Part shown: positions 15,297 to 30,847 of the stretch, one piece after another
Layout of the letters: each line of letters begins with the position of its first letter
Position numbering within the stretch: the stretch's first letter is position 1
Assembly (NCBI RefSeq): GCF_014696615.1
Contig: NZ_JACJQJ010000075.1
Location: 1-41,460, forward strand
Direction: 5' to 3'
Source of the DNA: Nostoc linckia FACHB-104
GTDB taxonomy: Bacteria > Cyanobacteriota > Cyanobacteriia > Cyanobacteriales > Nostocaceae
Length of the DNA stretch: 41,460 bases
The notes under the pieces: generated by a model
Told to the model about the DNA's origin: nothing
What the model saw: the letters and a program-made list of their open reading frames with translations, nothing else
The model's database searches: none
Translations under genes and position numbers: made by a program

Positions 15297-16076
15297 TTGA
15301 ATATTTGTGAGGAACCGCTTAGCTATTATGTGGAAATTGAGCAATTTAGCACTAAACAAGATACTGTTTATGGGCTGATAATTGCAATCCTAATTATTAG
15401 CTTTTGGGTAGGTAATTTAGCTTTGTTACTTAGTATTAACTGTGCCACATTGCCAATTTGGTTAATACCGATAGCAATAGTTTGGCAAATGTTTCTTTAT
15501 ACAGGGCTATTCATTACTGCACATGATGCTATGCATGGGTCGGTTTTTCGCAGAAATCCGAAAATTAATAATTTTATTGGGTCGCTAGCTGTAGGACTTT
15601 ACGCTTTTTTTCCGTATCAAAAGATGTTAAAAAAACATTGGTTGCATCATCGTTATCCTGCTAGTAAATTTGACCCCGATTTTCATGATAACAATCAAGA
15701 AAATCCTATTTTGTGGTATTTTCGCTTTATGCGAGAATACTCGACTTTGCAACAACTAATAGCCCTAAATATCGTATTTAATATAGCTAAATATGTTTTG
15801 CATATTCCCGAAATAAATCTCATTCTATTTTGGATTATTCCGCCAATTTTAAGTTCTATTCAACTGTTTTATTTCGGCACATACTTACCTCATCGAGAAC
15901 CAGAAACAGGGTACATTTATCCCCATTGCAGCCAAACAATGGCATTACCAATTTTTTGGTCATTCATTACTTGCTACCACTTTGGTTATCATGAAGAACA
16001 TCATGAATATCCCCATGTACCTTGGTGGCAACTTCCATCTGTATATAAGCACAGAGAAAGTGTTGGGCAAAATTGA
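15297..16076 (+). CDS. crtW: Beta-carotene ketolase, CrtW type
   Basis: The 259-residue membrane protein belongs to the fatty-acid-hydroxylase-like diiron family, and its pattern matches cyanobacterial CrtW, which adds 4-keto groups to beta-carotene to give echinenone or canthaxanthin. The histidine boxes are all present: HDAMHG near residue 79, KKHWLHHRYP near 113, FHDNNQ, and EEHHEYPHVPWWQLP near 230. Hydrophobic segments lie between them. In-frame ATG codons are absent near the start; TTG at 15297 follows AGAGG at seven bases, so it is the best start. The gene is followed by the broken start of a glycosyltransferase gene, which suggests that a ketocarotenoid glycoside pathway once lay here. 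Confidence 0.9.
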   Translation: MNICEEPLSYYVEIEQFSTKQDTVYGLIIAILIISFWVGNLALLLSINCATLPIWLIPIAIVWQMFLYTGLFITAHDAMHGSVFRRNPKINNFIGSLAVGLYAFFPYQKMLKKHWLHHRYPASKFDPDFHDNNQENPILWYFRFMREYSTLQQLIALNIVFNIAKYVLHIPEINLILFWIIPPILSSIQLFYFGTYLPHREPETGYIYPHCSQTMALPIFWSFITCYHFGYHEEHHEYPHVPWWQLPSVYKHRESVGQN

Positions 16077-16493: not shown

Positions 16494-16747
16494 AAATGTA
16501 CGCCAGCTTATGAAGTGCGATCGCATCAAAATAGGACATAAATATTATAGTAATCATTCCAGATTATCAATATCTCTACTCATAAACATATTTTCTAGGT
16601 AATTTACCGTAAATAATAGGTTAAAACTAGATTTTTTTTGTCACTTTTAGAATTTCACAATTCTAGAAAAATATCAAATCCTTGCAGAAGATAGTAATTA
16701 ACAGCAGTAACCTGCTAAATGCAAAATCTGATATTTTTCAGTTACCC
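16494..16747. promoter_or_regulatory. AT-rich region upstream of the RiPP modification operon
   Basis: This spacer should hold the promoter of the kinase-HopA1-LanM operon. It is AT-rich with GTAAATAATAGG near 16608 and TTCACAATTCTAGAA near 16652-16667, but I cannot assign -35 and -10 boxes with confidence. A TTG at 16682 in frame with the kinase gene could extend it by 22 residues. Confidence 0.3.
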
Positions 16748-17911
16748 ATGACCTTTTTATTAAATGCTCAGAATGTCTGCGATTATTTAGCTAGACATAA
16801 CCTTTGTTCTCCAAGCGAAACAAACCAGATTGACATAGAGTTAAAATCTGCTAAAAATTTTAATTTATTACTAACACTGCCAAATCATCAAAAGCTGTTA
16901 GTCAAGCAAGAACGTCACAATCACGAAGGGAAAGCATCGGGAGAATTTTTAAGTGAGTGGCGCATTCATGAATTTATACAAAAATTTCCTGAATTAAATC
17001 ATCTTCGCCCTTCCCTACCAGAGATACTGCATTATGATGCAGAAAATTCCATTATGGTTGCGAGATATTTAGATGATTATCAAGATTTAATGGAATTTTA
17101 CACCCAAGAGAAAATTTTTGATAGTAAAATTGCTGCGGCAATAGGTAATTTCTTAGCTAATATTCATCGTCATACTTTCAATCATCAAGAATATCAGGCT
17201 TTCTTATCGGGTAATTCAGATGATTCTTACACAGAACAAGTAAGAAGAATGGTTCATTATTTAGAAATAATAGAACCAGAAATTTTTGGTTTAGTACCTA
17301 CTGATGGGTTAAGATTTTTTGCCCTATATCAACGTTTTGATAGCTTAGGCACAGCTTTAAAAAATTTGGGTAATGCTGTGATTCCTTGTTGCTTAACTCA
17401 CAATGATCTCAAGCTAAATAATATATTAGTTCATAAAAATTGGCAGCAATCAACTAACAATATTATTCGCATAATTGATTGGGAACGTTCTGCTTGGGGA
17501 GATCCCGCATTTGATTTAGGAACACTAATTAGTAGCTACGTTCAATTATGGCTGGGTAGCTTAGTTATCAGTAAATCTTTGAGTCTGGAAGAATCTCTAA
17601 GTTTAGCGATGACTCCCCTAGAAAAGCTTCAGCCTTCAATTGCGACATTAACCCAAGTTTATTTGCAGACATTCCCAGAAATTTTAAAACACCGTCCTGA
17701 CTTCTTGCTGCGTGTGATGCAATTTACAGGTTTTGCTTTGATTCAAGGGATTCAAGCAATGATTCAGTATCAAAAATCTTTTGGCAATACAGGTATCGCC
17801 ATGCTTCAGGTTGCTAAAAGTTTATTATGTCGTCCAGAACAGTCAATACCAACAATTTTTGGTGCGATTGGTACAAGCGAATTAATTCAACAAACTGCTT
17901 TAACTGCTTAA
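16748..17911 (+). CDS. Phosphotransferase-family kinase of the RiPP locus (LanK-like)
   Basis: The protein of about 387 residues has the aminoglycoside-phosphotransferase/choline-kinase fold. It shows a lysine strand (KLLVKQERHNHEGKASGEF), the catalytic loop CCLTHNDLKLNNILVH near residue 215 (His-x-Asp with the downstream Asn) and the metal-binding IIRIIDWERSAWGDPAFDLG near 243. All core catalytic residues are present, so it should be active. In class V lanthipeptide systems a kinase of this fold phosphorylates Ser/Thr of the precursor before a HopA1-type lyase removes phosphate. Here it lies 24 bases before a HopA1 gene and upstream of LanM, so the same job is likely but unproven. The start is uncertain: ATG 16748 (beginning MTFLLNAQNV) or TTG 16682; neither has a good ribosome site. 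Confidence 0.82.
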   Translation: MTFLLNAQNVCDYLARHNLCSPSETNQIDIELKSAKNFNLLLTLPNHQKLLVKQERHNHEGKASGEFLSEWRIHEFIQKFPELNHLRPSLPEILHYDAENSIMVARYLDDYQDLMEFYTQEKIFDSKIAAAIGNFLANIHRHTFNHQEYQAFLSGNSDDSYTEQVRRMVHYLEIIEPEIFGLVPTDGLRFFALYQRFDSLGTALKNLGNAVIPCCLTHNDLKLNNILVHKNWQQSTNNIIRIIDWERSAWGDPAFDLGTLISSYVQLWLGSLVISKSLSLEESLSLAMTPLEKLQPSIATLTQVYLQTFPEILKHRPDFLLRVMQFTGFALIQGIQAMIQYQKSFGNTGIAMLQVAKSLLCRPEQSIPTIFGAIGTSELIQQTALTA

Positions 17912-17935
17912 TCGACTTTTTATCATTCAATTATT

Positions 17936-19039
17936 ATGCAATTACTTAACTCTGTTCAAATTCAGCTTAACCCTGGCATCAATCAGCGCTTAGTCAATGT
18001 TCTTGAAGATATTGTTAACAACATTGAAATTCGCTCTGATTTTTCCATTCGCCATCCAGATTATCAACCCTTGGAAGTACCTGCTGAAGCTGTTGAACGC
18101 TTTCAAAAATTTTCTGAAGAAATACAGCAAAAATATCTCAGTTTACAATTGCGAAGTTTTCTTTATGGTATTTATTACAACGGTTCAATGCGAAGTGAAC
18201 TAGCAGCAGATAAAAAAACAAACAATTTACCCTTAGATTTAGAAAATAATACAGTTTTAGGGGTAGATGTAGTCTTTTATAAACAATTGCATGAAAGTAA
18301 TTCTGGAGAAGGATATTTTCAGCCAGGATGGTCAATCTTAAAAGAAGAGAGTGATAGTAGATTAATAGTTAGTAAGGGTGGGTTGAGGCTGCACATTCAA
18401 CGGGATAAACATTTACCTTCATCTCATACATCTGCTGCTGTCGGTGATTTAGTTCCGATTAAAATGCCAAAAAATATTGTCCAAAGCGGCTTTTACATGG
18501 CAGTTGGTAATGCTGGATTATCTCGCCCTAGTACAGAAAATCTACAGATTGTGCGAATATATTTCAATCTCACCCCAGCAGGTGCTATTGCTGTTATGGG
18601 TAACATCACACAGCATTTAAATCAGATAAATATACCTTTTCAATTTAAAGTTTTGTACCATCCCAAAGATTATAATCGCTACGATTCTGGAGTCTTGTAT
18701 TTTGATAAAAGTGATTATGAATTGTTGAGCAAATCATTAAATAGGATTTATCTAGAAAATCGTGAACACTTTAAATCAGAAATTCCTCTATTCACCAAGG
18801 AACTAGCACCAGGTTTAGGTTTAGCAGAAGAACCAAATCAAAAGTTTGCCGAACAAGAAAGTTTTGGGATGAATCGCTGTCAGATAATTGCAAATGGTTT
18901 ACTCACCGCTTGGTATCAAGGAGATAATTCCCCTCAAAGACGGATAGAAGCAATTCAAGAGCAATTTTTGCTGCTAGGAATTGATTTAGAACGTGTTCAC
19001 CTCAATGCTAATTCTGAAGATATTTACCAAATATTATAA
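17936..19039 (+). CDS. HopA1-family protein, candidate phosphothreonine/serine lyase
   Basis: The 367-residue protein resembles the family named after the Pseudomonas type III effector HopA1. Landmarks are YLSLQLRSFLYGIYYNGS near residue 63, the conserved middle block VSKGGLRLHIQRDK near 145, GDLVPIKMPKN near 168, GFYMAVGNAG near 183, and VRIYFNLTPAGA near 205 that opens the C-terminal half. HopA1 proteins are related to OspF-type phosphothreonine lyases by fold, and the class V lanthipeptide lyases (LanY/LxmY type) belong here. It is therefore the natural partner of the upstream kinase: one phosphorylates, the other eliminates phosphate to give dehydroamino acids. That role is inferred from context. 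Spacing is 24 bases from the kinase and 57 from LanM, so the three genes form one operon. It is not a secreted toxin as far as can be seen, with no signal sequence. Confidence 0.82.
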   Translation: MQLLNSVQIQLNPGINQRLVNVLEDIVNNIEIRSDFSIRHPDYQPLEVPAEAVERFQKFSEEIQQKYLSLQLRSFLYGIYYNGSMRSELAADKKTNNLPLDLENNTVLGVDVVFYKQLHESNSGEGYFQPGWSILKEESDSRLIVSKGGLRLHIQRDKHLPSSHTSAAVGDLVPIKMPKNIVQSGFYMAVGNAGLSRPSTENLQIVRIYFNLTPAGAIAVMGNITQHLNQINIPFQFKVLYHPKDYNRYDSGVLYFDKSDYELLSKSLNRIYLENREHFKSEIPLFTKELAPGLGLAEEPNQKFAEQESFGMNRCQIIANGLLTAWYQGDNSPQRRIEAIQEQFLLLGIDLERVHLNANSEDIYQIL

Positions 19040-19096
19040 GTATCTTAGCTAATGTAATTAAAAAATATTTTACAGAAATTTATCGAGAATAATAGA

Positions 19097-22000
19097 ATGA
19101 AAATATCTGACTCAAAAATATCCCAAATAGTTATTAACGCTACTTTCTTGTCTGAAAACTTCAATACCAAAGATTATCAAAATATAAATTCTCAGCAACT
19201 TGATCAAAACCTAATTGAAAAACGTCTGCAAAATTGGTGTCAAGCAATTGGCGGAGAAGAAAAGCTAAAACAACGTCTTCGTTGGGATGGATTAGATTTA
19301 AATACAGTGCGTCCTTTATTAGTAAAAGCAGATTTTGGCAAAGATGATAAATTACCAGCTTGGGCAGAAACCCTAAAAGAATTAATTGAAAGTGGTATAT
19401 CTTTACTAAATTTAGAAGCAGCAGAAAAATTACCACTTGATTCCCAAAAACCTTTACCTTTTGAAGATTTTTATTTTCCATTTATCTTAGTAGCGCGCCG
19501 TAAATTATCTGCGGCGCTATCTCCAAATTATGATTTAGCATTATTAAGTACAGAAGCATATTTAACCTTAGAATATAGCTTACTGCAACAACTAGTAAGT
19601 TTAGGTACCGAAACATTATTATTTGAGTTTGATAAATTGCGCTCAAATCAAGCTTCTGCAAAGCAAGATAACTATATAGCAGAAAATAACAGTCGAATTA
19701 TTTATGATCAATTCATTCAAAATCTGCTCGAAGATGGAGGCTTAAAGTTTTTTGAGCATTACCCTGTTTTAGCAAGACTGATCGCTACCAATATTAATTT
19801 TTGGGTAACTAATACCATTGAATTTATCCAAAGGTTACAAGCTGATATCTCAGAAATTGAGCAGACTTTCTCTAAATATCCAAACATAGGAAAAGTCAAG
19901 GAAATAGAAACATCCCTATCAAACCGTCATCATGGTGGACGTAGCATTTTAGCTATTACCTTTGATTCAGGAATCAAAATTGTCTATAAACCTAAAGATT
20001 TGAGCTTAGATGTAGCTTTTAATAATTTACTAGATTGGTGTAATCAAGAAAGAATATCTTTACCATTTAAAATTACCAGAATTCTTCAACGGAAAGAATA
20101 TGGCTGGGTTGAATTTATTGCTCACCAACCTTGTGAGAATCAAGTCGCAGTCAACAACTTTTATAAAAGAGCAGGAATGTTATTATCACTGCTATTTGTA
20201 TTAGGCGCTAAAGACTGTGGCTCTGAAAATGTGATCACCAATTCTGAATATCCAATCCTGATTGATGCTGACATCTTAATGCATCCTATAGTTAAAAGTC
20301 ATGATGAATCAGAAGACTGGTTTCAAGATTCAGTTTTAAAAGCGGGATTTTTACCTGCTTGGGAAGGTAATACATTCTCAAAAAATGCTCAAGATTCCAG
20401 TGTACTGGGCAATATTTATCCTCAACAAGTCAATGCTTCTAGGGAGTGGCAATTTATTAATACAGACGGAATGCATCTAACCTCTAAAACAGCAATTATT
20501 CCTTCTGGTACTAATGCGGTAATTTTAGAAGGTAAACCTGTTTCGCCCAGGAACTATATAGAGAAAATTGTCACTGGTTTTGAGGAGATATATCGCTTAT
20601 TCATCAAAAATAAAGAAACTTTGTTGGGTCAATACAGCCCTCTATCAACTATCAAATCATTAAAGTCTCGATTTATCCCTCATCCATCCATACTATATGC
20701 TATCGTCGCTAAAAACAGTCTCAATCCTCAATCTTTGCGTAATGGCATAGAATATAGCATTCTGATTAATAGCTTAATTGATACTTTTAGTCGTTCTTTG
20801 TTAGAAGTTGAAGCTAATCCAGAAAGTTGGGCAATTTGGCAAGCAGAAACAAGGTTTTTACAACAGCAAGATATTCCCTATTTCTCTGTATCCTGTAATA
20901 GCAGTGATTTAGAAATTGAACGAGACAGGCCAATCAAGCAGTTGTTTAAAATATCCAGTTACCAAAGTTTAATTACTCAACTGCAAAATCTTGATGAACA
21001 TAATTTAGCCTTACAAATTAAATTAATTCGGATGAGTTTTGATGCCAAGTTTGCTCATCTAACCCTGAAAGATACTGTTTTACAGGGCAATTTTTCACAA
21101 TTCCACTCACTGACTCATGAACAATTACTCCAAGAAGCTGTAGAAATTGGCAATAATCTTGTCTTCAATGCAATTTGGAATTCTAACGGATGCAGCTGGA
21201 TTAATTTAGATTATATTTTCCAGGCTAATCGCTACCAACTCCAGCCGTTAGATGATTCTTTATATATAGGGCGTACCGGAGTGAGTTTGTTCCTAGCAGC
21301 CTTAGCCAAAATAACTGGTAGAAATGAATTTCAAGAAGTGGCTTTAGCTGCTTTATCACCTTTACAGCAATCGCTAAAAAAATCAGAAATCCGCAAAGAA
21401 ATAATCAAGTCAGAATTTGGTTTATTGGGTATAGGTGGTTTTATCTACAGTCTAGTTAAAATTAGTCAATTTCTGGCAGAGCCAAGTCTTTTAGAATCTG
21501 CCCAGCTTGCTGCAAAACTACTGACGAAAGAGGTAATTGCTAATGATGAAAAGCTGGATATTATTTGGGGAGTTGCGGGGGCAATTCCAGGTTTATTAGC
21601 CCTTTATCATCAAACAGGTGAACAAGGTGTGTTAGACATAGCAGTCACCTGTGGCAATCATTTATTATCACATCGAAGTAATAGTAACCCTAGAGCATGG
21701 TTAACAATAGAAAGTAAAAAACCTTTAACTGGTTTTTCTCACGGTGCAGCAGGTATTTCTCTTTCTCTATTGCGCCTATATGCTGCTACCGCAGATATAG
21801 CTTTTTTAGAAGCTGCACAAGAAGCAATTGAATATGAAAAAAGTGTTTTTGATGAATCAGTTCAAAATTGGCCAGACTTCCGATTATCGGAAAAAACAAA
21901 TCAAATTAAATTCTTGCATACTTGGTGTCATGGAAGTGCTGGAATTGGGTTAGCCCGTTTAGGTAGTTTGTCAATTATACAGACAGAGGAAATTTACTCA

Positions 22001-22327
22001 GACATTAATATCGCTTTAGAAACTACCCAAAAGTATGGAATACCTAGCACAGATATAGATCATCTTTGCTGTGGACATATGGGGAGAGTAGAACTGTTTA
22101 TTTTAGCATCCCAAAAACTGGGCAATCAAGAATGGCTAAACACTGCCATAAAACAGGCTGCATTAGTTATAGAACGGGCAAAATTAAATGGAGAATATTA
22201 TTTTTCTTCTCACTCCTATAAATCTGCTTATAGCCCTAGTTTTTTCAGAGGTGATGCGGGTATAGGTTATCAATTGTTACGTTTAGCATTTCCTGCCTCT
22301 TTACCTTCAGTCTTAACTTTAGAGTGA
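19097..22327 (+). CDS. lanM: LanM-type lanthipeptide synthetase, CCG class, with altered dehydratase motifs
   Basis: The 1076-residue protein has the LanM order: a kinase-like dehydratase (DUF4135 type, about residues 130-640) and a LanC-like cyclase (about 710-1076). The cyclase is complete: GVAGAIPGLLALY, GFSHGAAGIS, WCHGSAGIG (C944) and HLCCGHMG (C991, C992), giving three Cys zinc ligands as in the ProcM group. The dehydratase keeps VYKPK (K298), D373, N378, D390 and R525. By eye it differs where LanM enzymes usually have Asp-x-His (N276-x-H278), where Asp-x-His-x2-Asn is usual (D373-C-G375-x2-N378) and at a Thr (S531). So the phosphorylation and elimination steps may be weak or lost, with the neighbouring kinase and HopA1 protein taking over. 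The alignment is from memory and needs checking. It is the last gene of its operon and is followed by a terminator. Confidence 0.92.
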   Translation: MKISDSKISQIVINATFLSENFNTKDYQNINSQQLDQNLIEKRLQNWCQAIGGEEKLKQRLRWDGLDLNTVRPLLVKADFGKDDKLPAWAETLKELIESGISLLNLEAAEKLPLDSQKPLPFEDFYFPFILVARRKLSAALSPNYDLALLSTEAYLTLEYSLLQQLVSLGTETLLFEFDKLRSNQASAKQDNYIAENNSRIIYDQFIQNLLEDGGLKFFEHYPVLARLIATNINFWVTNTIEFIQRLQADISEIEQTFSKYPNIGKVKEIETSLSNRHHGGRSILAITFDSGIKIVYKPKDLSLDVAFNNLLDWCNQERISLPFKITRILQRKEYGWVEFIAHQPCENQVAVNNFYKRAGMLLSLLFVLGAKDCGSENVITNSEYPILIDADILMHPIVKSHDESEDWFQDSVLKAGFLPAWEGNTFSKNAQDSSVLGNIYPQQVNASREWQFINTDGMHLTSKTAIIPSGTNAVILEGKPVSPRNYIEKIVTGFEEIYRLFIKNKETLLGQYSPLSTIKSLKSRFIPHPSILYAIVAKNSLNPQSLRNGIEYSILINSLIDTFSRSLLEVEANPESWAIWQAETRFLQQQDIPYFSVSCNSSDLEIERDRPIKQLFKISSYQSLITQLQNLDEHNLALQIKLIRMSFDAKFAHLTLKDTVLQGNFSQFHSLTHEQLLQEAVEIGNNLVFNAIWNSNGCSWINLDYIFQANRYQLQPLDDSLYIGRTGVSLFLAALAKITGRNEFQEVALAALSPLQQSLKKSEIRKEIIKSEFGLLGIGGFIYSLVKISQFLAEPSLLESAQLAAKLLTKEVIANDEKLDIIWGVAGAIPGLLALYHQTGEQGVLDIAVTCGNHLLSHRSNSNPRAWLTIESKKPLTGFSHGAAGISLSLLRLYAATADIAFLEAAQEAIEYEKSVFDESVQNWPDFRLSEKTNQIKFLHTWCHGSAGIGLARLGSLSIIQTEEIYSDINIALETTQKYGIPSTDIDHLCCGHMGRVELFILASQKLGNQEWLNTAIKQAALVIERAKLNGEYYFSSHSYKSAYSPSFFRGDAGIGYQLLRLAFPASLPSVLTLE

Positions 22328-22880: not shown

Positions 22881-23090
22881 ATGGCTAATATCAAAGTAAA
22901 TGATTTATTGAATCTCAATCTTACTGGTGCTGAGTTGTTTAATGATTCAGAAAGCTTTTTGACTGAACTGAGCGAAGAAAGTGAGCAAATCAATATTCAT
23001 GGTGGTCTTCCTTGCATTCCTCCTACGGGCTGTGAGGCAACAAAACTCTGTATTAGGGGAACAGGAATTATTATCGTAGGTCTAGTCTAA
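22881..23090 (+). CDS. Lanthipeptide-type precursor 1
   Basis: The 69-residue peptide begins MANIKVNDLLNLNLTG and has an acidic leader (FNDSESFLTELSEESEQ) ending in the double-glycine site IHGG, where the C39 peptidase of the exporter would cut. The core is about 27 residues with three Cys spaced five residues apart, including CEATKLC. It has Thr but no Ser to dehydrate and a very hydrophobic end (GIIIVGLV). The leader matches the four following copies almost residue for residue, while the core is unique. The ATG follows TTGGAG at ten bases. In the known chemistry, Thr dehydration and Cys addition would give methyllanthionine rings; the actual product is unknown. Confidence 0.9.
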   Translation: MANIKVNDLLNLNLTGAELFNDSESFLTELSEESEQINIHGGLPCIPPTGCEATKLCIRGTGIIIVGLV

Positions 23091-23209: not shown

Positions 23210-23428
23210 ATGGCTAATATAAAGGTAAATGATTTATTGAATCTTAACCTGACTGGTGCTGAGTTATTTGACGATTCAGAAAGTTTTTTGACTGAACTAA
23301 GCGATGAAAGCTCACAAATTAATGTTTATGGTGGTTATTGCGTTCCTACTAGCTGTCTGGAAGTAACGAATGTCTGCATGACAATGACGATATTTTTTGC
23401 ACAGATGGCAGTAAATATGGAAGCATAA
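23210..23428 (+). CDS. Lanthipeptide-type precursor 2
   Basis: The 72-residue peptide repeats the leader (MANIKVNDLLNLNLTG, then FDDSESFLTELSDESSQ) with cleavage site VYGG. The core of about 30 residues starts YCVPTSCLEVTNVC, a Cys-x4-Cys-x6-Cys pattern with Thr and Ser between the cysteines, followed by a hydrophobic, Met-rich tail ending NMEA. The ribosome site is GGAAG. Base identity with the leader of precursor 1 is very high, showing recent duplication, whereas the core differs at nearly every position. That is the pattern expected if one enzyme set processes many substrates. Confidence 0.9.
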   Translation: MANIKVNDLLNLNLTGAELFDDSESFLTELSDESSQINVYGGYCVPTSCLEVTNVCMTMTIFFAQMAVNMEA

Positions 23429-23473: not shown

Positions 23474-23541
23474 CAAACTATAAATCAAGTCAAAATGCTC
23501 GATTTATAGCCTGAAAACAAAAATAATTGAGGCAAAATAAA

Positions 23542-23748
23542 ATGGCTAACATTAAAGTAAATGATTTATTGAGGCTTAATCTGACTGGTACTGAATTATT
23601 TAACGATTCAGAAAGTTTTATGAAAGAGTTAAGTGAGGATGACTATCAGGTATTTGGCGGTGGCGCTTGTGCAGAATGTACTTGTGCTCGAACTTCAGGA
23701 CTTTGTTACTGGAAAACTAACGTTGTTGCGATGGGACAAGAAGAATAG
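23542..23748 (+). CDS. Lanthipeptide-type precursor 3
   Basis: The 68-residue peptide starts at ATG 23542 (GAGG nine bases upstream), although the frame is open from 23527. The leader MANIKVNDLLRLNLTG, FNDSESFMKELSEDD ends in VFGG. The core of about 28 residues begins GACAECTCARTSGLC, with four Cys crowded into 13 residues, and ends in a polar tail (VVAMGQEE). The Cys-Ala-Arg-Thr-Ser-Gly-Leu-Cys block matches equivalent blocks in cores 1, 2 and 5. Its leader shares the SEDD variant with precursor 5, so these two are closest relatives in the array. Confidence 0.9.
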   Translation: MANIKVNDLLRLNLTGTELFNDSESFMKELSEDDYQVFGGGACAECTCARTSGLCYWKTNVVAMGQEE

Positions 23749-23901: not shown

Positions 23902-24105
23902 ATGGCTAATATCAAAGTAGATGATTTATTGAATCTGAAATTGACTGGTACTGAGTTATTTAATGATTCAGAAAGTTTTCTGACTGAACTGAGTGATGAA
24001 AGTGAGCAAATCAAAGTTTATGGTGGGATAGCTTGTGTGCGTCCTACATTGGATCAAACTTTACCTCCATGCCTCAGAACATCGGTTATTATTACACAGG
24101 TGTAA
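23902..24105 (+). CDS. Lanthipeptide-type precursor 4
   Basis: The 67-residue peptide has the common leader (MANIKVDDLLNLKLTG, FNDSESFLTELSDESEQ) ending in VYGG. The core of about 25 residues has only two Cys, in IACVRPTLDQTLPPC, with Thr at several positions and a beta-branched tail (SVIITQV). Two cysteines allow two rings at most, so it is the least cross-linked of the set. The ribosome site is GGAG. A frame with the same leader and a different core makes it a clear member of the array. Confidence 0.88.
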   Translation: MANIKVDDLLNLKLTGTELFNDSESFLTELSDESEQIKVYGGIACVRPTLDQTLPPCLRTSVIITQV

Positions 24106-24228: not shown

Positions 24229-24435
24229 ATGGCTAATATAAGAGTAAATGATTTATTGAATCTTAACCTGACTGGTACTGACTTATTTAACGATTCAGAA
24301 AGCTTCTTAAAAGAGTTGAGTGAGGATGATAATCAGATATTTGGTGGTGGAATTAATTTAACTTTTCCAACGCCATCATGTAATTGTGCCAATACTTCAG
24401 TATGGTGTAAAGGAGAATCAATGATCATGGCATAG
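24229..24435 (+). CDS. Lanthipeptide-type precursor 5
   Basis: The 68-residue peptide has the leader MANIRVNDLLNLNLTG, FNDSESFLKELSEDD and the cleavage site IFGG. The core of about 28 residues carries PSCNCANTSVWC, again a Cys-x-x-Thr-Ser-x-x-Cys-like block, before a short tail (GESMIMA). Thr and Ser before the first Cys could form further rings. GGAGG seven or eight bases upstream is the best ribosome site of the array. Its stop codon is followed after only a few bases by a leaderless core fragment instead of the usual stem-loop, so a deletion seems to have occurred at this end. Confidence 0.9.
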   Translation: MANIRVNDLLNLNLTGTDLFNDSESFLKELSEDDNQIFGGGINLTFPTPSCNCANTSVWCKGESMIMA

Positions 24436-24544
24436 TGATGGAATTTTTGGTGGTACGGTTTGCATTGAAGCTACTTGTATAGAAAATGGATTAGGATGCT
24501 TCAGAAATATAATAATGACAGTTTTTCACAGTATATCAAGATGA
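24425..24544 (+). pseudogene. Leaderless remnant of a sixth precursor core
   Basis: In the +1 frame relative to precursor 5 there is a stop-free stretch with SDGIFGG followed by TVCIEATCIENGLGC, which has the same Cys-x4-Cys-x6-Cys spacing as core 2, and a tail ending in SISR before TGA 24542-24544. It keeps a recognisable end of leader and cleavage site but has no start codon, leader or ribosome site, so it cannot be made as it stands except by frameshifting from precursor 5. The first 11 bases overlap the end of precursor 5. Confidence 0.65.
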
Positions 24545-24678: not shown

Positions 24679-25416
24679 CTAGTCCAGTTGTTTGATAATC
24701 TCAAATTTAGCGACGTGCTGCTTTACCCACTCGTCAAAAAATTCTGACATAATTTGATAATTTAATTTCTCACTCAATTCGGGTTGAATAATCTCTTCTA
24801 CCATAATCAGATGTACTCCCTTAGAAGTAATAATTGGCTTGAGAAGTTGGGGAGGTTTAGCTGCAAAAACAGCAGCAGAAATTTCTGGCTTTAAATCTTT
24901 ACGATTTACTTTCCCTAGATATCCACATTGGCGACGCAATTCTATATCTTGGATGTATTGATTAGCTACATCATAAAAACTAGTCTCACCTTCTTTAATG
25001 GCATAAAATAACTCCATTGCTAAATCTTCATCATCCAAGATAACTTCATATATAACTGCACCAGCATATTCTAGTTGATTTTCAAAAAAATATGGTTCAA
25101 CTTTGTCTAAAAATAGATGTTGAGCCAACTTATTAGTCAACAAATTTCGGTAAACTAATTCTTCAAAATCATCTAAAGATAAAGCGTGTTTTTCCAACCA
25201 TTTCCAGGTATCTTCAGATGTTTCTAGGGCATTCATTAAACGGAAATTATCTGCTGCTTCTTGCAGTTCCTCAGTCTCTACTTTAATACCTAGTTTTGAT
25301 ACAGTGATTTCAATTATCTTATGGGTAACAATCTTTTCAATTAAGTCAGGAATTTGGCGGTATTGTTTGACAATATGTAGAATATCTTGGTTGCTGACTG
25401 TGATGGTTTGTGACAT
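24679..25416 (-). CDS. PpiC/SurA-type peptidyl-prolyl isomerase of the export operon
   Basis: The protein of 245 residues has an N-terminal helical SurA-like part (ILHIVKQYRQIPDLIEKIV, EDTWKWLEKHALSLDDFEEL) and a C-terminal parvulin-type rotamase. The rotamase shows MELFYAIKEGETSFYDVA, CGYLGKVNRKDLKPEISAAV and PPQLLKPIITSKGVHLIMVEE. It has no signal peptide, unlike exported SurA. In cyanobacteria such isomerases are regular companions of HlyD and C39-peptidase ABC genes in bacteriocin-type loci, though their role in peptide export is not settled. The start ATG at 25416 follows GGAG at eight bases; a TTG five codons upstream is less likely. It is the last gene of the - strand operon, 56 bases after the adaptor gene. 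Confidence 0.85.
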   Translation of the reverse strand: MSQTITVSNQDILHIVKQYRQIPDLIEKIVTHKIIEITVSKLGIKVETEELQEAADNFRLMNALETSEDTWKWLEKHALSLDDFEELVYRNLLTNKLAQHLFLDKVEPYFFENQLEYAGAVIYEVILDDEDLAMELFYAIKEGETSFYDVANQYIQDIELRRQCGYLGKVNRKDLKPEISAAVFAAKPPQLLKPIITSKGVHLIMVEEIIQPELSEKLNYQIMSEFFDEWVKQHVAKFEIIKQLD

Positions 25417-25472
25417 AATTTTGCTCCACAAATAACTGACAGTTACACAAATATCGGATGAGCTATTAAGTT

Positions 25473-26981
25473 TTAGCTTCCTTGTTGCAACTGTTTGAAT
25501 GGGTCTAGTAAAAAGTCAATAATTCGACGCTGACGAACAATTACTTCTGCGGTTGCTGTATCGCCAGGACGTAAAGGTGTACATTTATTTTTACTAGGAA
25601 TACAATTACTTTTCAGGGCAATTTCTAAATTATACGCAGCAATTTTTCCATTAGGTGTATCGATTTCTAATGTGGTTGGTGAAATCTCTAATAACTCGCC
25701 TTCAATGATTCCATAATCTTGAAAAGGATAGGCATCAAATTTTAGTTTGACTGGCAATCCTTTGCGTAAAGAACCACTTTCAGATGTGGGCATTTGTGCG
25801 CGAATAATTAATGGTGAATTTTCGGGAGCAATTTCTGCAACCATTGTTCCTGGTTGAACAACTGCACCAGGACGCTGAATTGGGAGTTGAAATACTCTCC
25901 CAGCAATAGGAGATTTTAAGACTCGTTGCTGTAATTGCAATTGCAAGCTGTTAATTTGACTATTAGTTTGAGCAATTTCTGCTTGTAAGGTAGTCGTTTC
26001 TGTGTCTAAATTTTTTAATTGCTCCTCGCTTTTGAGTACAGCTAGTTTTCCCGAATGAGTTAATGTTTGATAACTGCGTTTTTGTTCCTTTAAGCGCAAA
26101 TATGCTTGTTCAATTTCTGCCTTAGCTTGGCGAATTGTACGCTGATAGCTACTTTGTTGTTCGGCTAGGCGGAGATTAGCTTGTTTGATATCTGATTTGC
26201 TTTGTTCGTATAATCTCTGCCTGTCTTTGGCGATATCTTGCTTATCAACAACATTAATTTCGGGAATAGCACCGGCTTGCTTAAGTTGGCTGTAGCGTTC
26301 TACTTCTCTTTGGGCGCTGGCTAAACTATTTTCTAATAATTTATTTGCCGTTTGAGTTTGTTCAATAGTTTGTCGTGCTTGATTAACTTGGGTGATTTTT
26401 TCGGTTTGTTGAATTTCGTAGGAGTTTTTTAAAGCCGTTAAATTTTGCTGTGCTTGCTCAATTTGGGCTTGTTTTTCTAACTCTTGGGCTTGATTTTGTT
26501 GGCGTTGAGTGGCTAAAGAGACGATGATTTGATTTTTCAGCAGATTTAATTGCGATCGCCTATTTAATTGTCCTTCTAATTTCTCCTTACTTTGGCGCAA
26601 ATCAGACTTAACTAAGTCTGCATCTAATATCATGACAGGTTCTCCAGGTTTGACTAAATCACCTTCTTTTACTGGAATAGATGTAACCGTCCCTGGTACT
26701 GCACTATCTAACTTAAATGTTTTACCTTTTGGCTCAAGTCTTCCCCTAGCTGTACCAGTTTCATCTATTTTCGATAACATCGCCCAAGGTAAAGCAATAG
26801 ATATAAAACTGAGCAAAAAATACAACATACCCCTAGTCCAAACTTGAGGTAAGCTATCTAGTAAATCTTTAGTATATTCAGACAAATCATCAGGCAATTG
26901 ATTGATGTTTGTAGATGATGTGTCTGGCTGTTCGTAGTCATTGATGGTATTTGCTACTTCGCCGTTAAATATCTCGGACAT
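25473..26981 (-). CDS. HlyD-family adaptor of the peptide exporter
   Basis: The protein of about 502 residues is a type I secretion-like membrane fusion protein. A cytosolic N-terminus of about 50 residues precedes one membrane helix (GMLYFLLSFISIALPWAML). A lipoyl half-motif (GTVTSIPVKEGDLVKPGEPV) follows. A very long Gln/Glu-rich coiled coil spans about residues 120-345, then the second lipoyl half (GRVFQLPIQRPGAVVQPG) and a barrel with a C-terminal hydrophobic end. It would join the ABC exporter to an outer membrane channel such as TolC, which is not in the window. ATG 26981 is favoured; a TTG at 27008 would add nine residues that lie next to a mobile element. About 465 bases separate it from the ABC gene, so it may have its own promoter. 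Confidence 0.88.
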   Translation of the reverse strand: MSEIFNGEVANTINDYEQPDTSSTNINQLPDDLSEYTKDLLDSLPQVWTRGMLYFLLSFISIALPWAMLSKIDETGTARGRLEPKGKTFKLDSAVPGTVTSIPVKEGDLVKPGEPVMILDADLVKSDLRQSKEKLEGQLNRRSQLNLLKNQIIVSLATQRQQNQAQELEKQAQIEQAQQNLTALKNSYEIQQTEKITQVNQARQTIEQTQTANKLLENSLASAQREVERYSQLKQAGAIPEINVVDKQDIAKDRQRLYEQSKSDIKQANLRLAEQQSSYQRTIRQAKAEIEQAYLRLKEQKRSYQTLTHSGKLAVLKSEEQLKNLDTETTTLQAEIAQTNSQINSLQLQLQQRVLKSPIAGRVFQLPIQRPGAVVQPGTMVAEIAPENSPLIIRAQMPTSESGSLRKGLPVKLKFDAYPFQDYGIIEGELLEISPTTLEIDTPNGKIAAYNLEIALKSNCIPSKNKCTPLRPGDTATAEVIVRQRRIIDFLLDPFKQLQQGS

Positions 26982-27016
26982 AATGTCTTTTTTGGGGGAA
27001 ATTTGCAATTGATGGC

Positions 27017-27445: not shown

Positions 27446-30169
27446 TTAAGCTGATGCATCTAACTGTTGTTGGTTGAGATAGAAATAATGTCCGCGTTTA
27501 CTCATCAATTCTTGGTGAGTTCCACTTTCAATTAATACACCTTTATCTAAGACCAAAATTAAATCGGCATTTCTGACAGTGGAAAGACGATGAGCAATTA
27601 CTAAGGTAGTTCTTCCCTTAAGAATTGTATTAAAATTCTTCTGAATTATTCTTTCCGATTCAGTATCTAAATGGGAAGTTGCCTCATCTAAAATTAATAA
27701 GCGAGGATTACCTAATAAAGCTCTAGCTATAGCGATTCTTTGTCTTTGTCCTCCTGAAAGCATTCCTCCGCCTTCACCAGTTTGAGTTTCATAGCCCATT
27801 GGTAATTTTTTAATGAACTCATCAGCACCAGCTTGAGTTGCGGCTGCAATGATTTCTTCTAATTTTGCACCTGGATGTCCTAAGCTAATATTTTCCCGAA
27901 TTGTACCGCCAAATAAAAATGTATCTTGGTCAACTACTCCAACTTGTTGGCGTAAGGAACGTAAGGAAATAGTAGTAATATCGCATCCATCAATGAATAT
28001 GTTGCCATCGCTAGGGGGATATAAGCCTAAAACTAACTTAGAAATGGTAGTTTTTCCCGAACCACTGCGTCCTACTAATGCTACCATCTGTCCGGGTTGA
28101 ATATGAAAGCTGAGGTTTTCGATCACATTAGTATCACTTTCTGAGTGATAGCGAAAGGTGACATTTTTAAATTGGATGTCACCTTTAATTGTAGGTAAAT
28201 TCTGTTTGATTTGCTTTTGTAAGTTTTCTTCTGGTTCGGCATCTAATACATCATTAATGCGTTCCATAGCAATTACAACTTCTTGCAGTTGGTTCCACAA
28301 TACTGTTAAACGTTGAAAAGGCGCAATAATCGTATTTAACAGCATATTAAATGCCACAAGCTGTCCAATTGTTAATTGATTTTGAATGACTAAATGCGCT
28401 CCAAACCACAGCATAGCTGTAGTGGCAATTGCTTGAATTGAATTGCTAAAAATTTGCAAGCGATTGCTAATAACTTCTCCAGAAAACCCTGTTTTAATAG
28501 CTTTGTGCAATAACTCTTCCCAATGCCAACGTACTGTTTGTTCTACGGCTGTAGATTTCACTGTTCGCACCCCAGAAATAGCTTCAATTAGATAGCTACT
28601 TTCTTGGCTATAAGCACTAAATATTTCACGGGAAATCTTCTTTAGGAATGGTGTTGCAATCAAAGCTAGTAAAAAGAATGGCGGTACAATTAATAAAGCC
28701 AGTAATGCCATTTGCCAACTGTACCAAAACATTAATCCTACATAGATAAATACTGTGAGTAAATCTAAGAGGATTGATAAAGCTTCTCCCGATAGAAAGC
28801 GTTGAATTTTGCGATTTTCTTGGACGCGAGAAATAATATCCCCAACATAACGCGTTTCAAAAAAACTTAGAGGAAGTTGTAAAGTATGACGGATAAATCC
28901 GACAATTAAAGCAACATCTAGCTTATTGGCAGTATGGTCTAGTAAATATTGCCGTAAACCTGTTAGTGCTACCCGAAATAAACTAAAAATTAGCAATCCT
29001 AAACCTACAGCCGTTAAGGTTAACTCAGAACGCTGTACCACCACTCTATCGAGAATAAACTGGGTAAATAAAGGGGTAATTAAGCCAAATATTTGGATAA
29101 ATAAGGAAGCCAGAAATACTTCCAGCAACACCAAGCCGTGAGGTTTAATTAACTCAAAAAATTGCCAAAAGGGTGTTGTCGCCTCTTCCGTGTCTTTTAA
29201 AAGGGCTGTGGGTTGCAGTAGCAGTGCATATCCAGTCCAATCTGCTTTAAATTCCCGGTGAGTCAGGGTACGTTGACCAATACCTGGGTCTGCAACTATG
29301 ACATATTTATTGGTGATTTCATAGACAACTATATAATGTTTGCCCTCCCAGTGAGCGATCGCAGGTAATTTTTGCTTGGCTAATTGGTCGAGACTGGCTT
29401 TTACGGGTCTTGTGTTAAATCCGATACTTTCGGCTGCGATGGATAATCCCCGCAGAGATGCACCATTGCGGTCAACATTGGCAATATCTCGCACAAAATT
29501 GACACTAAAGCGCTTTCCCCAATAACGCGACACCATCACCAAACAAGCTGCACCACAATCTGATGCACTCTGTTGGGCAAAATATGGATAGCTTTTGGTG
29601 ACGCGTTGCCATAAATGCCCGACTCTTTGTGTAGGGTTGGGAAAGTAAGCTTTGCTAATCTTTTTCTGGGAATTACTTGCTGCTGGTGGGGAAGAACTTG
29701 TGATGCTTGGCTGTTCAATAAGCTGGGGAGATGGGGTTTCATTGTCAGACTTAACAAACAGAGAATTTCTTGCTTGTGCTTGGGTAAGTAAATGTTCGTA
29801 AATTTGTGGAAATTTGCCTATCAATGATGACAGCGCTGCATCAGCAATAAAAGCCAGGTGTAAATTAACACTAGCTCTGGCTGCATAAGCTTGAAAACCA
29901 GCCTCTCGAAACAAGGTAAATTCCCCAAATGATTGTCCTACCTCCAAGGTTGCAATCAATTCACCTGCATCATCGAGTAATCTGACTTTACCTGCAAGTA
30001 CAATGTAGATACCTGGTTCAACATCTGTTCCTTGCCAAAATTTTCCCACCTTGGGAGTAAGATATTTAACTTGTTGAAGGCAGTGCTGTAAGTCTTCTGA
30101 GGAGAGAGAATAACCCAAGACACTGCATAGTTGCTGCACAGACAGCGACTCTGATATATGTTGCGCCAT
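27446..30169 (-). CDS. C39-peptidase ABC exporter with N-terminal cyclic-nucleotide-binding-like domain
   Basis: The 907-residue protein both trims and exports double-glycine peptides. Residues about 35-140 form a Crp-type nucleotide-binding fold (GTDVEPGIYIVLAGKVRLLD, VGQSFGEFTLF). The C39 peptidase follows at about 195-320 with a full triad: C205 in SASDCGAACL, H278 in GKHYIVVY and D294 in VADPG. The membrane domain covers about 335-620. The ATPase has Walker A GRSGSGKTT, signature LSGGQRQR, Walker B LLILDEATSH and the switch His in IAHRLS. In known systems the C39 domain cuts after Gly-Gly, which fits all five precursor leaders. The layout resembles HetC-type cyanobacterial proteins. AGGA lies just before the ATG at 30169. 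The HTH gene lies 36 bases upstream. Confidence 0.93.
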   Translation of the reverse strand: MAQHISESLSVQQLCSVLGYSLSSEDLQHCLQQVKYLTPKVGKFWQGTDVEPGIYIVLAGKVRLLDDAGELIATLEVGQSFGEFTLFREAGFQAYAARASVNLHLAFIADAALSSLIGKFPQIYEHLLTQAQARNSLFVKSDNETPSPQLIEQPSITSSSPPAASNSQKKISKAYFPNPTQRVGHLWQRVTKSYPYFAQQSASDCGAACLVMVSRYWGKRFSVNFVRDIANVDRNGASLRGLSIAAESIGFNTRPVKASLDQLAKQKLPAIAHWEGKHYIVVYEITNKYVIVADPGIGQRTLTHREFKADWTGYALLLQPTALLKDTEEATTPFWQFFELIKPHGLVLLEVFLASLFIQIFGLITPLFTQFILDRVVVQRSELTLTAVGLGLLIFSLFRVALTGLRQYLLDHTANKLDVALIVGFIRHTLQLPLSFFETRYVGDIISRVQENRKIQRFLSGEALSILLDLLTVFIYVGLMFWYSWQMALLALLIVPPFFLLALIATPFLKKISREIFSAYSQESSYLIEAISGVRTVKSTAVEQTVRWHWEELLHKAIKTGFSGEVISNRLQIFSNSIQAIATTAMLWFGAHLVIQNQLTIGQLVAFNMLLNTIIAPFQRLTVLWNQLQEVVIAMERINDVLDAEPEENLQKQIKQNLPTIKGDIQFKNVTFRYHSESDTNVIENLSFHIQPGQMVALVGRSGSGKTTISKLVLGLYPPSDGNIFIDGCDITTISLRSLRQQVGVVDQDTFLFGGTIRENISLGHPGAKLEEIIAAATQAGADEFIKKLPMGYETQTGEGGGMLSGGQRQRIAIARALLGNPRLLILDEATSHLDTESERIIQKNFNTILKGRTTLVIAHRLSTVRNADLILVLDKGVLIESGTHQELMSKRGHYFYLNQQQLDASA

Positions 30170-30205: not shown

Positions 30206-30805
30206 TTATTTCTCTGATTCCCAAAGAAAAAATCCCGTAAAATTACGCGATTTTTCGGATTTAAGGTCAGAAATCAAGATTTTTTGTCCTGCGGTTTTCT
30301 CTGTATGTTCACTCTGAGATGGAGTGGGTTTAGGGATGGTTGATAATCCCATTTGTTTGAGGATGCGTTTCAGATGGCGATCGCTCACATCAATTCCTAA
30401 TTCTTTCGCTAAATGCTTTCGCAACCAATTGACTGTCCAGCGTCTAAACCCATAGCCACAATCCCTAGGATTTTGAGAAAGTAACTGTTGTAAGCGTTCC
30501 AAATATTCCTGATTAATTGCTTTTGGGCGACCTAGAGGACAATCTTGCCATTGGTGCGCCATCCCAGTACGCGCAATATGCATCCAATGTCGTGCTGTTG
30601 CTGGAGAACATTTTAATGTCTGACAAATTTCGGTTTGAGTTTTACCCTCATCCGCCAACAACATAATTTCGATTCGCTGACGATAAGACTCAGACAAATC
30701 ATCTTGTAAATTTTTTTGCAGCTGTTTACGCTGAAATGGTGTTAAATACTTACCTGTTCCCATATTTGGGAGATTAACTTCAGGCTGCTCAAAATCGTTT
30801 GACAT
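30206..30805 (-). CDS. HTH protein resembling the DNA-binding half of an IS630-type transposase
   Basis: The protein of 199 residues has a helix-turn-helix of the type found at the start of IS630-family transposases (MLLADEGKTQTEICQTLKCS, then PATARHWMHIARTGM). A winged-helix second domain follows (RRWTVNWLRKHLAKELGIDV, then SDRHLKRILKQMGLS). The catalytic DDE half of a transposase (another 150 residues or so) is missing. The C-terminus is a polar tail ending FTGFFLWESEK. It lies just upstream of the ABC exporter gene in the same direction, so it may be a domesticated regulator of the export operon, or a remnant of an insertion sequence. Start ATG 30805 is preceded by an in-frame GTG at 30808; neither has a clear ribosome site. 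Confidence 0.75.
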   Translation of the reverse strand: MSNDFEQPEVNLPNMGTGKYLTPFQRKQLQKNLQDDLSESYRQRIEIMLLADEGKTQTEICQTLKCSPATARHWMHIARTGMAHQWQDCPLGRPKAINQEYLERLQQLLSQNPRDCGYGFRRWTVNWLRKHLAKELGIDVSDRHLKRILKQMGLSTIPKPTPSQSEHTEKTAGQKILISDLKSEKSRNFTGFFLWESEK

Positions 30806-30847
30806 CACGGTATTTGGCTGTTGATTCCCTGTAGATTGACTGATAAA

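Follow-up and report, generated by a model that had tools for sequence, protein, structure and literature searches.

In the cyanobacterium Nostoc linckia FACHB-104, a stretch of 41,460 nucleotides (assembly GCF_014696615.1, contig NZ_JACJQJ010000075.1, positions 1 to 41,460, forward strand; the whole stretch is called the window below) encodes, at positions 16748-22327, a lanthipeptide operon that combines enzymes of two classes. A LanK-type Ser/Thr kinase and a HopA1-family phospho-Ser/Thr lyase of the LanY type, both typical of class V, are followed by a full-length LanM, the synthetase of class II, whose dehydratase site is degenerate and whose cyclase zinc site is complete. We infer that this is probably a class V-type operon, in which the LanK-HopA1 pair dehydrates the peptides and LanM serves mainly as their cyclase, with a dehydratase domain that is kept but impaired. 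LanK would phosphorylate Ser and Thr residues of precursors that carry class V-type leaders, the HopA1 lyase would eliminate the phosphate to give dehydroalanine or dehydrobutyrine, and the LanC-like domain of LanM would add core cysteines to these residues at its Cys-Cys-Cys zinc site, forming (methyl)lanthionine rings. The LanM dehydratase domain would persist as a scaffold that still folds but is catalytically impaired, and might serve to bind the leader or to dock LanK-HopA1; an ATP-binding cassette (ABC) exporter with a C39 peptidase domain would remove the leader at its GG end. A first-pass annotation of the stretch had raised this division of labour as the first of two alternatives, and it is favoured here because eight more of the fetched loci have the arrangement, because the LanM clade concerned loses catalytic residues in various ways yet keeps all zinc ligands, because the precursors share their leader with HopA1 loci devoid of LanM and not with canonical LanMs, and because the lyase residues are intact and core cysteine tracks LanM, with exceptions. 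The second alternative, that each system acts on different residues, is less likely for the window LanM.

The three genes lie on the plus strand in the order kinase, HopA1, LanM, with intergenic gaps of 24 and 57 bases, and the gene set read by the first-pass annotation (APH-type kinase, HopA1-family protein and LanM with short gaps) is borne out by these coordinates and by family matches. The kinase (16748-17911) belongs to the APH family (PF01636, 3.7e-13); its open reading frame (ORF) is listed as 16682-17911 with a TTG start, and the ATG common to its relatives lies at 16748 (M23 of the listed ORF). It also matches the NCBIfam model LxmK (6e-23), but below the curated cut-off (81.5 versus 315 bits). 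The HopA1 gene (17936-19039) was assigned from its PF17914 match (8.6e-59) and an alignment to 9dk1. LanM (19097-22327; 1076 residues) has the class II architecture, with a DUF4135 dehydratase domain (1.4e-117; residues 222-598, 19760-20890) and a LANC_like cyclase domain (3.3e-63; residues 717-1073, 21245-22315), and scores 920 bits against TIGR03897, above the cut-off.

Correspondences with CylM were counted in the printed alignment to 5dzt. Two of the nine CylM dehydratase positions are altered in a way that sets the window protein apart: N276 (19922-19924) stands for D252 and G375 (20219-20221) for H349. The remainder read H278 for H254, K298 for K274, D373 for D347, N378 for N352, D390 for D364, R525 for R506 and S531 for T512, so that the N276-x-H278, D373, G375 and N378 of the first-pass annotation were correct to the letter and the alignment to CylM that it had called for confirms the D252 and H349 positions as non-canonical. 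These two changes stand out because Asp occupies the D252 position in 87/87 canonical cyanobacterial LanMs compared and His the H349 position in 85/87, the two exceptions having that change alone (Tyr in L026, Leu in L095). Ser531, which had been read as a further sign of impairment, is the right letter but carries no such weight, since ten of the 87 canonical enzymes also have Ser there. At a position labelled E366 in this analysis, the window LanM has D392, and Asp is found in all 12 members of the clade described below where canonical enzymes have Glu. The cyclase zinc site is complete, with C944 (21926-21928) and C991 and C992 (22067-22072). In the CylM mutagenesis study (PMC4550811), H349A had modified nearly all of its substrate after 10 h and H254A likewise reached nearly full or full conversion on long incubation, whilst D252A gave partially dehydrated products and D347A was inactive, D347 being essential. 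The window LanM therefore joins two changes that each impair the enzyme and neither of which is fatal alone. A pseudogene or an assembly error was rejected as the cause, as N276 and G375 recur in seven clade genomes and all 12 ORFs are full-length.

Relatives were sought across the phylum. In a sample of 386 genomes, HopA1 was present in 55, 19 of which also had LanM; by the listed coordinates HopA1 adjoins LanM in two of them (the window's genome and G091), a comparison made by eye among the matches listed, so that other cases may exist. A third genome, G296, encodes an 829-residue HopA1-LanC fusion (L012, 4413-6902) with its zinc ligands retained and a LanK adjoining. Further relatives came from a scan of named genomes (seven loci) and from profile searches of 386 and 217 genomes, with loci fetched around many of the matches. 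Altogether 101 LanM-like proteins were compared; leaving out the fusion and a truncated protein (L004), they divide into 12 with at least three changes at ten active-site positions and 87 with none or one, none having two. The 87 canonical LanMs were taken from the better-scoring rows, not at random, and the rows are related by descent.

In a quick tree, the 12 degenerate LanMs form one clade with a Shimodaira-Hasegawa-like approximate likelihood-ratio (SH-aLRT) support of 100, the catalytic columns having been kept (ten of 1111 columns). Besides the window, its members are from Nostoc carneum NIES-2107 (L031), Calothrix membranacea FACHB-236 (L032), Calothrix sp. CSU_2_0 (L033), Nostocaceae MO_167.B47 with two LanMs (L034, L035), Moorena bouillonii PNG5-198 (L036), and genomes G091 (L011), G143 (L023), G407 (L051), G403 (L056) and G499 (L057). 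A profile built from clade LanMs scores the clade above 1800 bits and all others listed below 1200 bits; nine of the 12 are in the profile and Moorena is not in those lists, so the gap is tested by G407, G403 and G499 only. The catalytic residues have decayed in different ways: the D252 position reads Asn in eight, Glu in two and Asp in two, the D347 position Asp in seven, Asn in three, Ser in one and Lys in one, and the H349 position Gly in seven, Asp in two, Gln in one and His in two. In L023, H254, N352 and R506 are gone as well, and the precursor next to it has the leader type common to the clade. All 12 members retain the three zinc cysteines and the K274 and D364 positions.

Among positions that canonical LanMs conserve to at least 97%, the clade has changed in 38% of cells at nine catalytic positions, against 1.8% for 23 others of the dehydratase domain and 0% for the two zinc positions that pass this filter; when 12 zinc-complete canonical LanMs were drawn at random 200 times, the figures were 0.3% (maximum 1.9%) at the catalytic positions and 2.8% at the other dehydratase positions. 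The ratio of dehydratase to cyclase divergence (median over pairs) stands at 1.11 for the clade and 1.08 for canonical LanMs, which implies that the dehydratase domain is not rotting but that its active site is relaxed and the domain kept. The mirror case also occurs: 18 of the 87 dehydratase-canonical LanMs lack one or more LanC zinc ligands (L022, L024, L025 with three genes, L027 with two, L030, L037, L096, L101, L103-L108 and L113). The precursor-like ORF ends adjoining the zinc-less LanMs of L025, L027 and L104 (at most four per gene) have no core cysteine, and such enzymes may yield dehydrated peptides without rings.

The fetched flanks were mostly 4-6 kb a side, some shortened by contig ends. 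Nine of the 12 clade LanMs have LanK and HopA1 no more than 4.3 kb away, against 0/87 canonical ones with the pair anywhere in the flanks, and precursors with a class V-type leader lie near 12/12 and 0/87, respectively. The guess that similar neighbourhoods exist in other cyanobacteria thus held. In the window, five short precursor ORFs lie between 22881 and 24435 on the plus strand. Their leaders, which end in GG, are closely alike, and their cores, which hold Cys, Ser and Thr, differ. Precursor 1 (22881-23090) has the class V-type cyanobacterial leader and the core LPCIPPTGCEATKLCIRGTGIIIVGLV, precursor 2 (23210-23428) the core YCVPTSCLEVTNVCMTMTIFFAQMAVNMEA, precursor 3 (23542-23748, from an ATG inside a TTG-started ORF at 23527) the core ACAECTCARTSGLCYWKTNVVAMGQEE after GGG, precursor 4 (23902-24105) the core IACVRPTLDQTLPPCLRTSVIITQV and precursor 5 (24229-24435) the core INLTFPTPSCNCANTSVWCKGESMIMA after GGG. 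Past the stop codon of precursor 5, in another frame at about 24438-24530 on the same strand, a stretch read by eye includes ...GIFGGTVCIEATCIENGLGCFRNIIMT and looks like the remnant of a sixth precursor, its core without a leader. The window leaders group with those of HopA1 loci without LanM. Read by eye, the leaders of small ORFs beside canonical LanMs are different, and we take them to be of the Nif11, NHLP and RAWKDEE types; the LanM-type leaders expected of class II are absent from the operon's precursors.

The class V pair itself appears intact. The complete motif that the first-pass annotation saw in the kinase (HNDLKLNN, IDWE) stands, with H240, D242, N247, D266 and E268 present (numbered from the TTG at 16682), and the enzyme is a stand-alone PF01636 kinase as in class V. 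The LanK motif residues are present in 9/9 LanM-linked kinases. A kinase profile search of solved structures returned five kinase-type matches, none named a lanthipeptide kinase. For the HopA1 protein, the only convincing solved relative is 9dk1_B, named 'Lyase'; an entry sharing that chain, 9DK3, is named for the lexapeptide-biosynthesis kinase LxmK (PMC12291118). From this alignment and from spacing, in which the first Arg is off by one residue, R207, K238, R248 and Y255 correspond to R187, K219, R229 and Y236 of CaoY, the catalytic set expected of a class V PF17914 lyase. In CaoY, according to PMC9486802, lyase activity is lost in K219A and nearly lost in R187A. Among HopA1 ORFs of 300-480 residues (n=62; LanK ORFs were compared at 330-460 residues, n=61), the full set is present in 9/9 LanM-linked proteins and 34/53 others, and 16 of the 19 that lack it group as a clade without recognisable precursors.

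That clade includes a second LanK-HopA1 pair from the window's own genome (L009 9281-11794, G000:C138 near 66319), the other 15 members being from other genomes (L067, L138, L141, L147, L152-L158, L162, L163, L166 and L169). The catalytic Lys position is Gln or Glu in these proteins, and recognisable precursors were found in 0/16 of the fetched stretches; they are conserved pairs whose lyase is probably dead.

If LanM acts as the cyclase, core cysteine is expected to accompany it. Cysteine occurs in 30/30 cores at the 12 LanM-bearing loci, against 11/131 at 34 class V loci without LanM, and two or more cysteines occur in 28/30 and 9/131, respectively (per-locus Mann-Whitney p 1.4e-7; Fisher p 9e-24 with cores as the unit, although these are not independent). 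Left out of this count were six precursor ORFs in which no GG, GA or GS cut could be recognised, one at L036 (N-masked) and five at loci without LanM.

Several observations weigh against the proposed division of labour. Cysteine-bearing cores also occur at seven of the 34 loci without LanM (L060, L061, L064, L133, L142, L145 and L164). The genomes of L060, L061 and L064 carry a degenerate LanM elsewhere, and G360 (L142) and G199 (L145) each have one LanM match with a canonical dehydratase, but a genome search gave no LanM match in G095 (L133) or G320 (L164). Of the eight LanM-less loci with precursors in the HopA1 clade to which all LanM-linked members belong, five also have some cysteine, so that part of the cysteine contrast follows HopA1 ancestry. 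The LanM-linked HopA1s are not one clade, and the HopA1 tree needs three label changes, which implies that some class V loci may have lost LanM, or that it may have passed from one such locus to another. Three of the 12 degenerate LanMs (L023, L034 and L036) have no LanK-HopA1 alongside; in each of these genomes (G143, MO_167 and Moorena) a pair is encoded elsewhere, and its HopA1 (L058 in G143, L059 in Moorena, and copies in MO_167) shares an 18-member clade with the linked ones (support 99), which for G143 and Moorena speaks in favour of the proposal. Mere presence of HopA1 is no evidence within Nostocaceae, as it was found in 107/108 LanM-bearing genomes of that family searched; it occurs in 43/43 genomes of the same family and 12/343 others, a split read from the order of a listing that omits 311 of the genomes without a match. 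The co-occurrence of HopA1 with degenerate LanM, seen in seven of eight genomes, was accordingly dropped as evidence within the family and keeps weight for G143 and Moorena only; the eighth genome, a Pleurocapsa, has a LanM with a canonical dehydratase. The cyclase domain has not been static either, 45 conserved positions having changed in 5.7% of cells in the clade against 1.2% (maximum 3.2%) in the draws, with the zinc ligands spared. This shift falls mostly at residues 774 and 1056. Residue 774 (21416-21418), a Gly that zinc-complete canonical LanMs conserve to at least 97%, is Leu or Phe in 12/12 clade members, a change that might reflect an altered partner or substrate.

A further counter-example is L170 5247-14679 (in G508), where a HopA1 pair lies 3.3 kb from a fully canonical LanM (DHKDHNDERT, CCH), so that with this locus counted the pair and class V-leader precursors occur near 1/88 canonical LanMs. 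Directly upstream of this LanM lies its own precursor, whose leader mainly resembles class II (RAWKDEEYR...) and also gives a weak match to the class V leader profile (3e-5). Proximity alone was rejected as the cause of degeneration on the strength of this locus, and the contrast implies that loss of the site goes with shared class V precursors more than with mere proximity. The leader of the L170 LanM's own precursor starts as class V-type and continues as class II-type, and the locus is a possible snapshot of how capture of a LanM could start.

Residual, slow dehydratase activity of the window LanM is possible. It keeps D373, K298, H278, N378, D390 and R525, all but N378 also being retained throughout its subgroup, and the slow but extensive modification by CylM H349A and the partial products of D252A (PMC4550811) show that single changes of this kind leave activity behind. 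Both systems might then dehydrate, LanM working slowly on some Ser and Thr residues and cyclising as well, and LanK-HopA1 working on others. We regard this as unlikely, given that the two impairing changes are combined in one protein, that the residue at D347 is replaced by Ser, Lys or Asn in five of the 12 clade members, with L023 devoid of H254, N352 and R506 besides, and that the leaders beside canonical LanMs are of other kinds. The same D347 losses bear on a relay in which the LanM domain still phosphorylates but cannot eliminate, HopA1 removing the phosphate that it leaves. In keeping with such a relay, 10/12 members are changed at D252, the P-loop Asp and one of the four residues that serve elimination in CylM, and the K274 and D364 positions are retained; with an essential residue of CylM gone from five of 12, and with the LanK motif present in every linked kinase so that no other kinase is needed, it is improbable.

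It could also be argued that LanM is a decaying passenger and that LanK-HopA1 makes peptides that are dehydrated and either uncyclised or spontaneously cyclised. Class V-type loci without LanM are common, and the Lan ring of rosin is reported (PMC12291118) to form by substrate-controlled addition facilitated by RosK-RosY. A passenger would hardly be expected, however, to retain its zinc ligands in 12/12 cases, full-length ORFs and an unchanged ratio of domain divergence, or to lie at the loci that hold most cysteine-bearing cores (30/41), and this explanation seems very improbable.

The proposal that LanK-HopA1 dehydrates and LanM cyclises can be taken further. The class V pair and LanM may form a distinct three-protein synthetase, in which the LanM dehydratase, of lipid-kinase fold, has turned into a pseudokinase scaffold that presents class V leaders and receives the dehydrated peptide; this type of LanM would have arisen once in cyanobacteria, since its members form a single clade, through its capture by class V clusters, with some relatives (Moorena, G143) now acting in trans. 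The case for this fuller model is about evenly balanced. Were it true, it would mean, with the zinc-less, dehydratase-only LanMs, that LanM has been splitting into single-function specialists in both directions.

On the minus strand downstream, the window encodes further genes that may serve the operon. A PpiC-type protein (24679-25431) matches the peptide-maturation model TIGR04500 below its cut-off (74 versus 180 bits) and is a probable accessory gene; a similarly sized ORF takes its place in L031, L032, L033 and L035, by position and size only. An HlyD-type membrane fusion protein (25473-27008) is probably part of the exporter, and the C39-type ABC exporter (27446-30169) is expected to cut the GG leader and export the peptide. 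A helix-turn-helix protein (30206-30808) is a possible regulator. Upstream, on the plus strand, a beta-carotene ketolase CrtW (15297-16076; NF045690, 431 bits, over cut-off) lies just before the operon and is probably unrelated to it; in L032 a 257-residue ORF whose start resembles the window CrtW lies upstream of the operon. In MO_167.B47 (L035, 7793-9595), a 600-residue ORF stands between HopA1 and LanM in an otherwise similar operon.

Lanthipeptide classes are defined by their synthetases, and a class is often called from Pfam domains. One large survey (PMC7268733) took the presence of PF13575 as the mark of a class II cluster and, for cyanobacteria, reported no lanthipeptide enzymes other than LanMs. 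A cluster such as that of the window would thus be filed as class II, though its dehydration is probably class V. Combining enzymes of two classes, these loci would be natural cases of a LanM cyclase domain acting on a peptide dehydrated by others, offer a clean test case for the role of a dehydratase domain that is not dehydrating, and suggest a candidate cyclase partner for the engineering of class V-leader peptides. A search of the open-licence literature, a scope that leaves most subscription papers outside, found no description of a kinase/HopA1 cluster whose LanM has lost its dehydratase site.

Judged from sequence, the operon is neither clean class II, its active site and leaders differing from that class, nor clean class V, in which no class I-IV synthetase is expected and here a LanM-family protein, albeit one with a degenerate dehydratase site, is present. 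It resembles the class II LanMs (CylM, LicM2 and the cyanobacterial ProcM type) in full-length architecture, TIGR03897 score and complete zinc site, the last of which we take to be like that of ProcM, and differs from them in D252N, H349G, the Asp for E366 and precursors of another leader type. With class Va (cacaoidin CaoK/CaoY and lexapeptide LxmK/LxmY) it shares the kinase and lyase families, including the matched CaoY residues; unlike those systems it has a LanM-derived cyclase, and no flavin Cys decarboxylase family match was found among the 28 window ORFs scanned with Pfam. The cyanobacterial Family 1A or type-B HopA1-linked peptides, an identification resting on their published description and not on sequence comparison, are alike in being restricted to Cyanobacteria and in having a conserved leader (GG in Family 1A), several precursors and a kinase/HopA1 pair (PMC8153245 and PMC9486802, the latter reporting the type-B precursors). 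Most loci of that kind examined here have cysteine-free cores and no LanM, whereas the subset to which the window belongs has both cysteine and LanM. PMC8153245 describes a kind of HopA1-linked peptide that is limited to cyanobacteria, and 20% of HopA1 proteins as near or fused to LanC-like cyclases, a set that may include some of the present loci and that shares with them a LanC-fold cyclase beside HopA1; its section on these neighbours names LanM for likeness only and does not mention a lost LanM dehydratase site. Class Vb (LanK, LanY and LanC; mSmoA), as outlined in PMC12291118, likewise unites a stand-alone APH-type kinase, a HopA1-type lyase and a LanC-fold cyclase. The window differs in that its LanC fold forms the C-terminal domain of a LanM whose dehydratase domain is degenerate, and in its cyanobacterial leader type and several precursors; the system would accordingly be a new, class Vb-like variant of class V.

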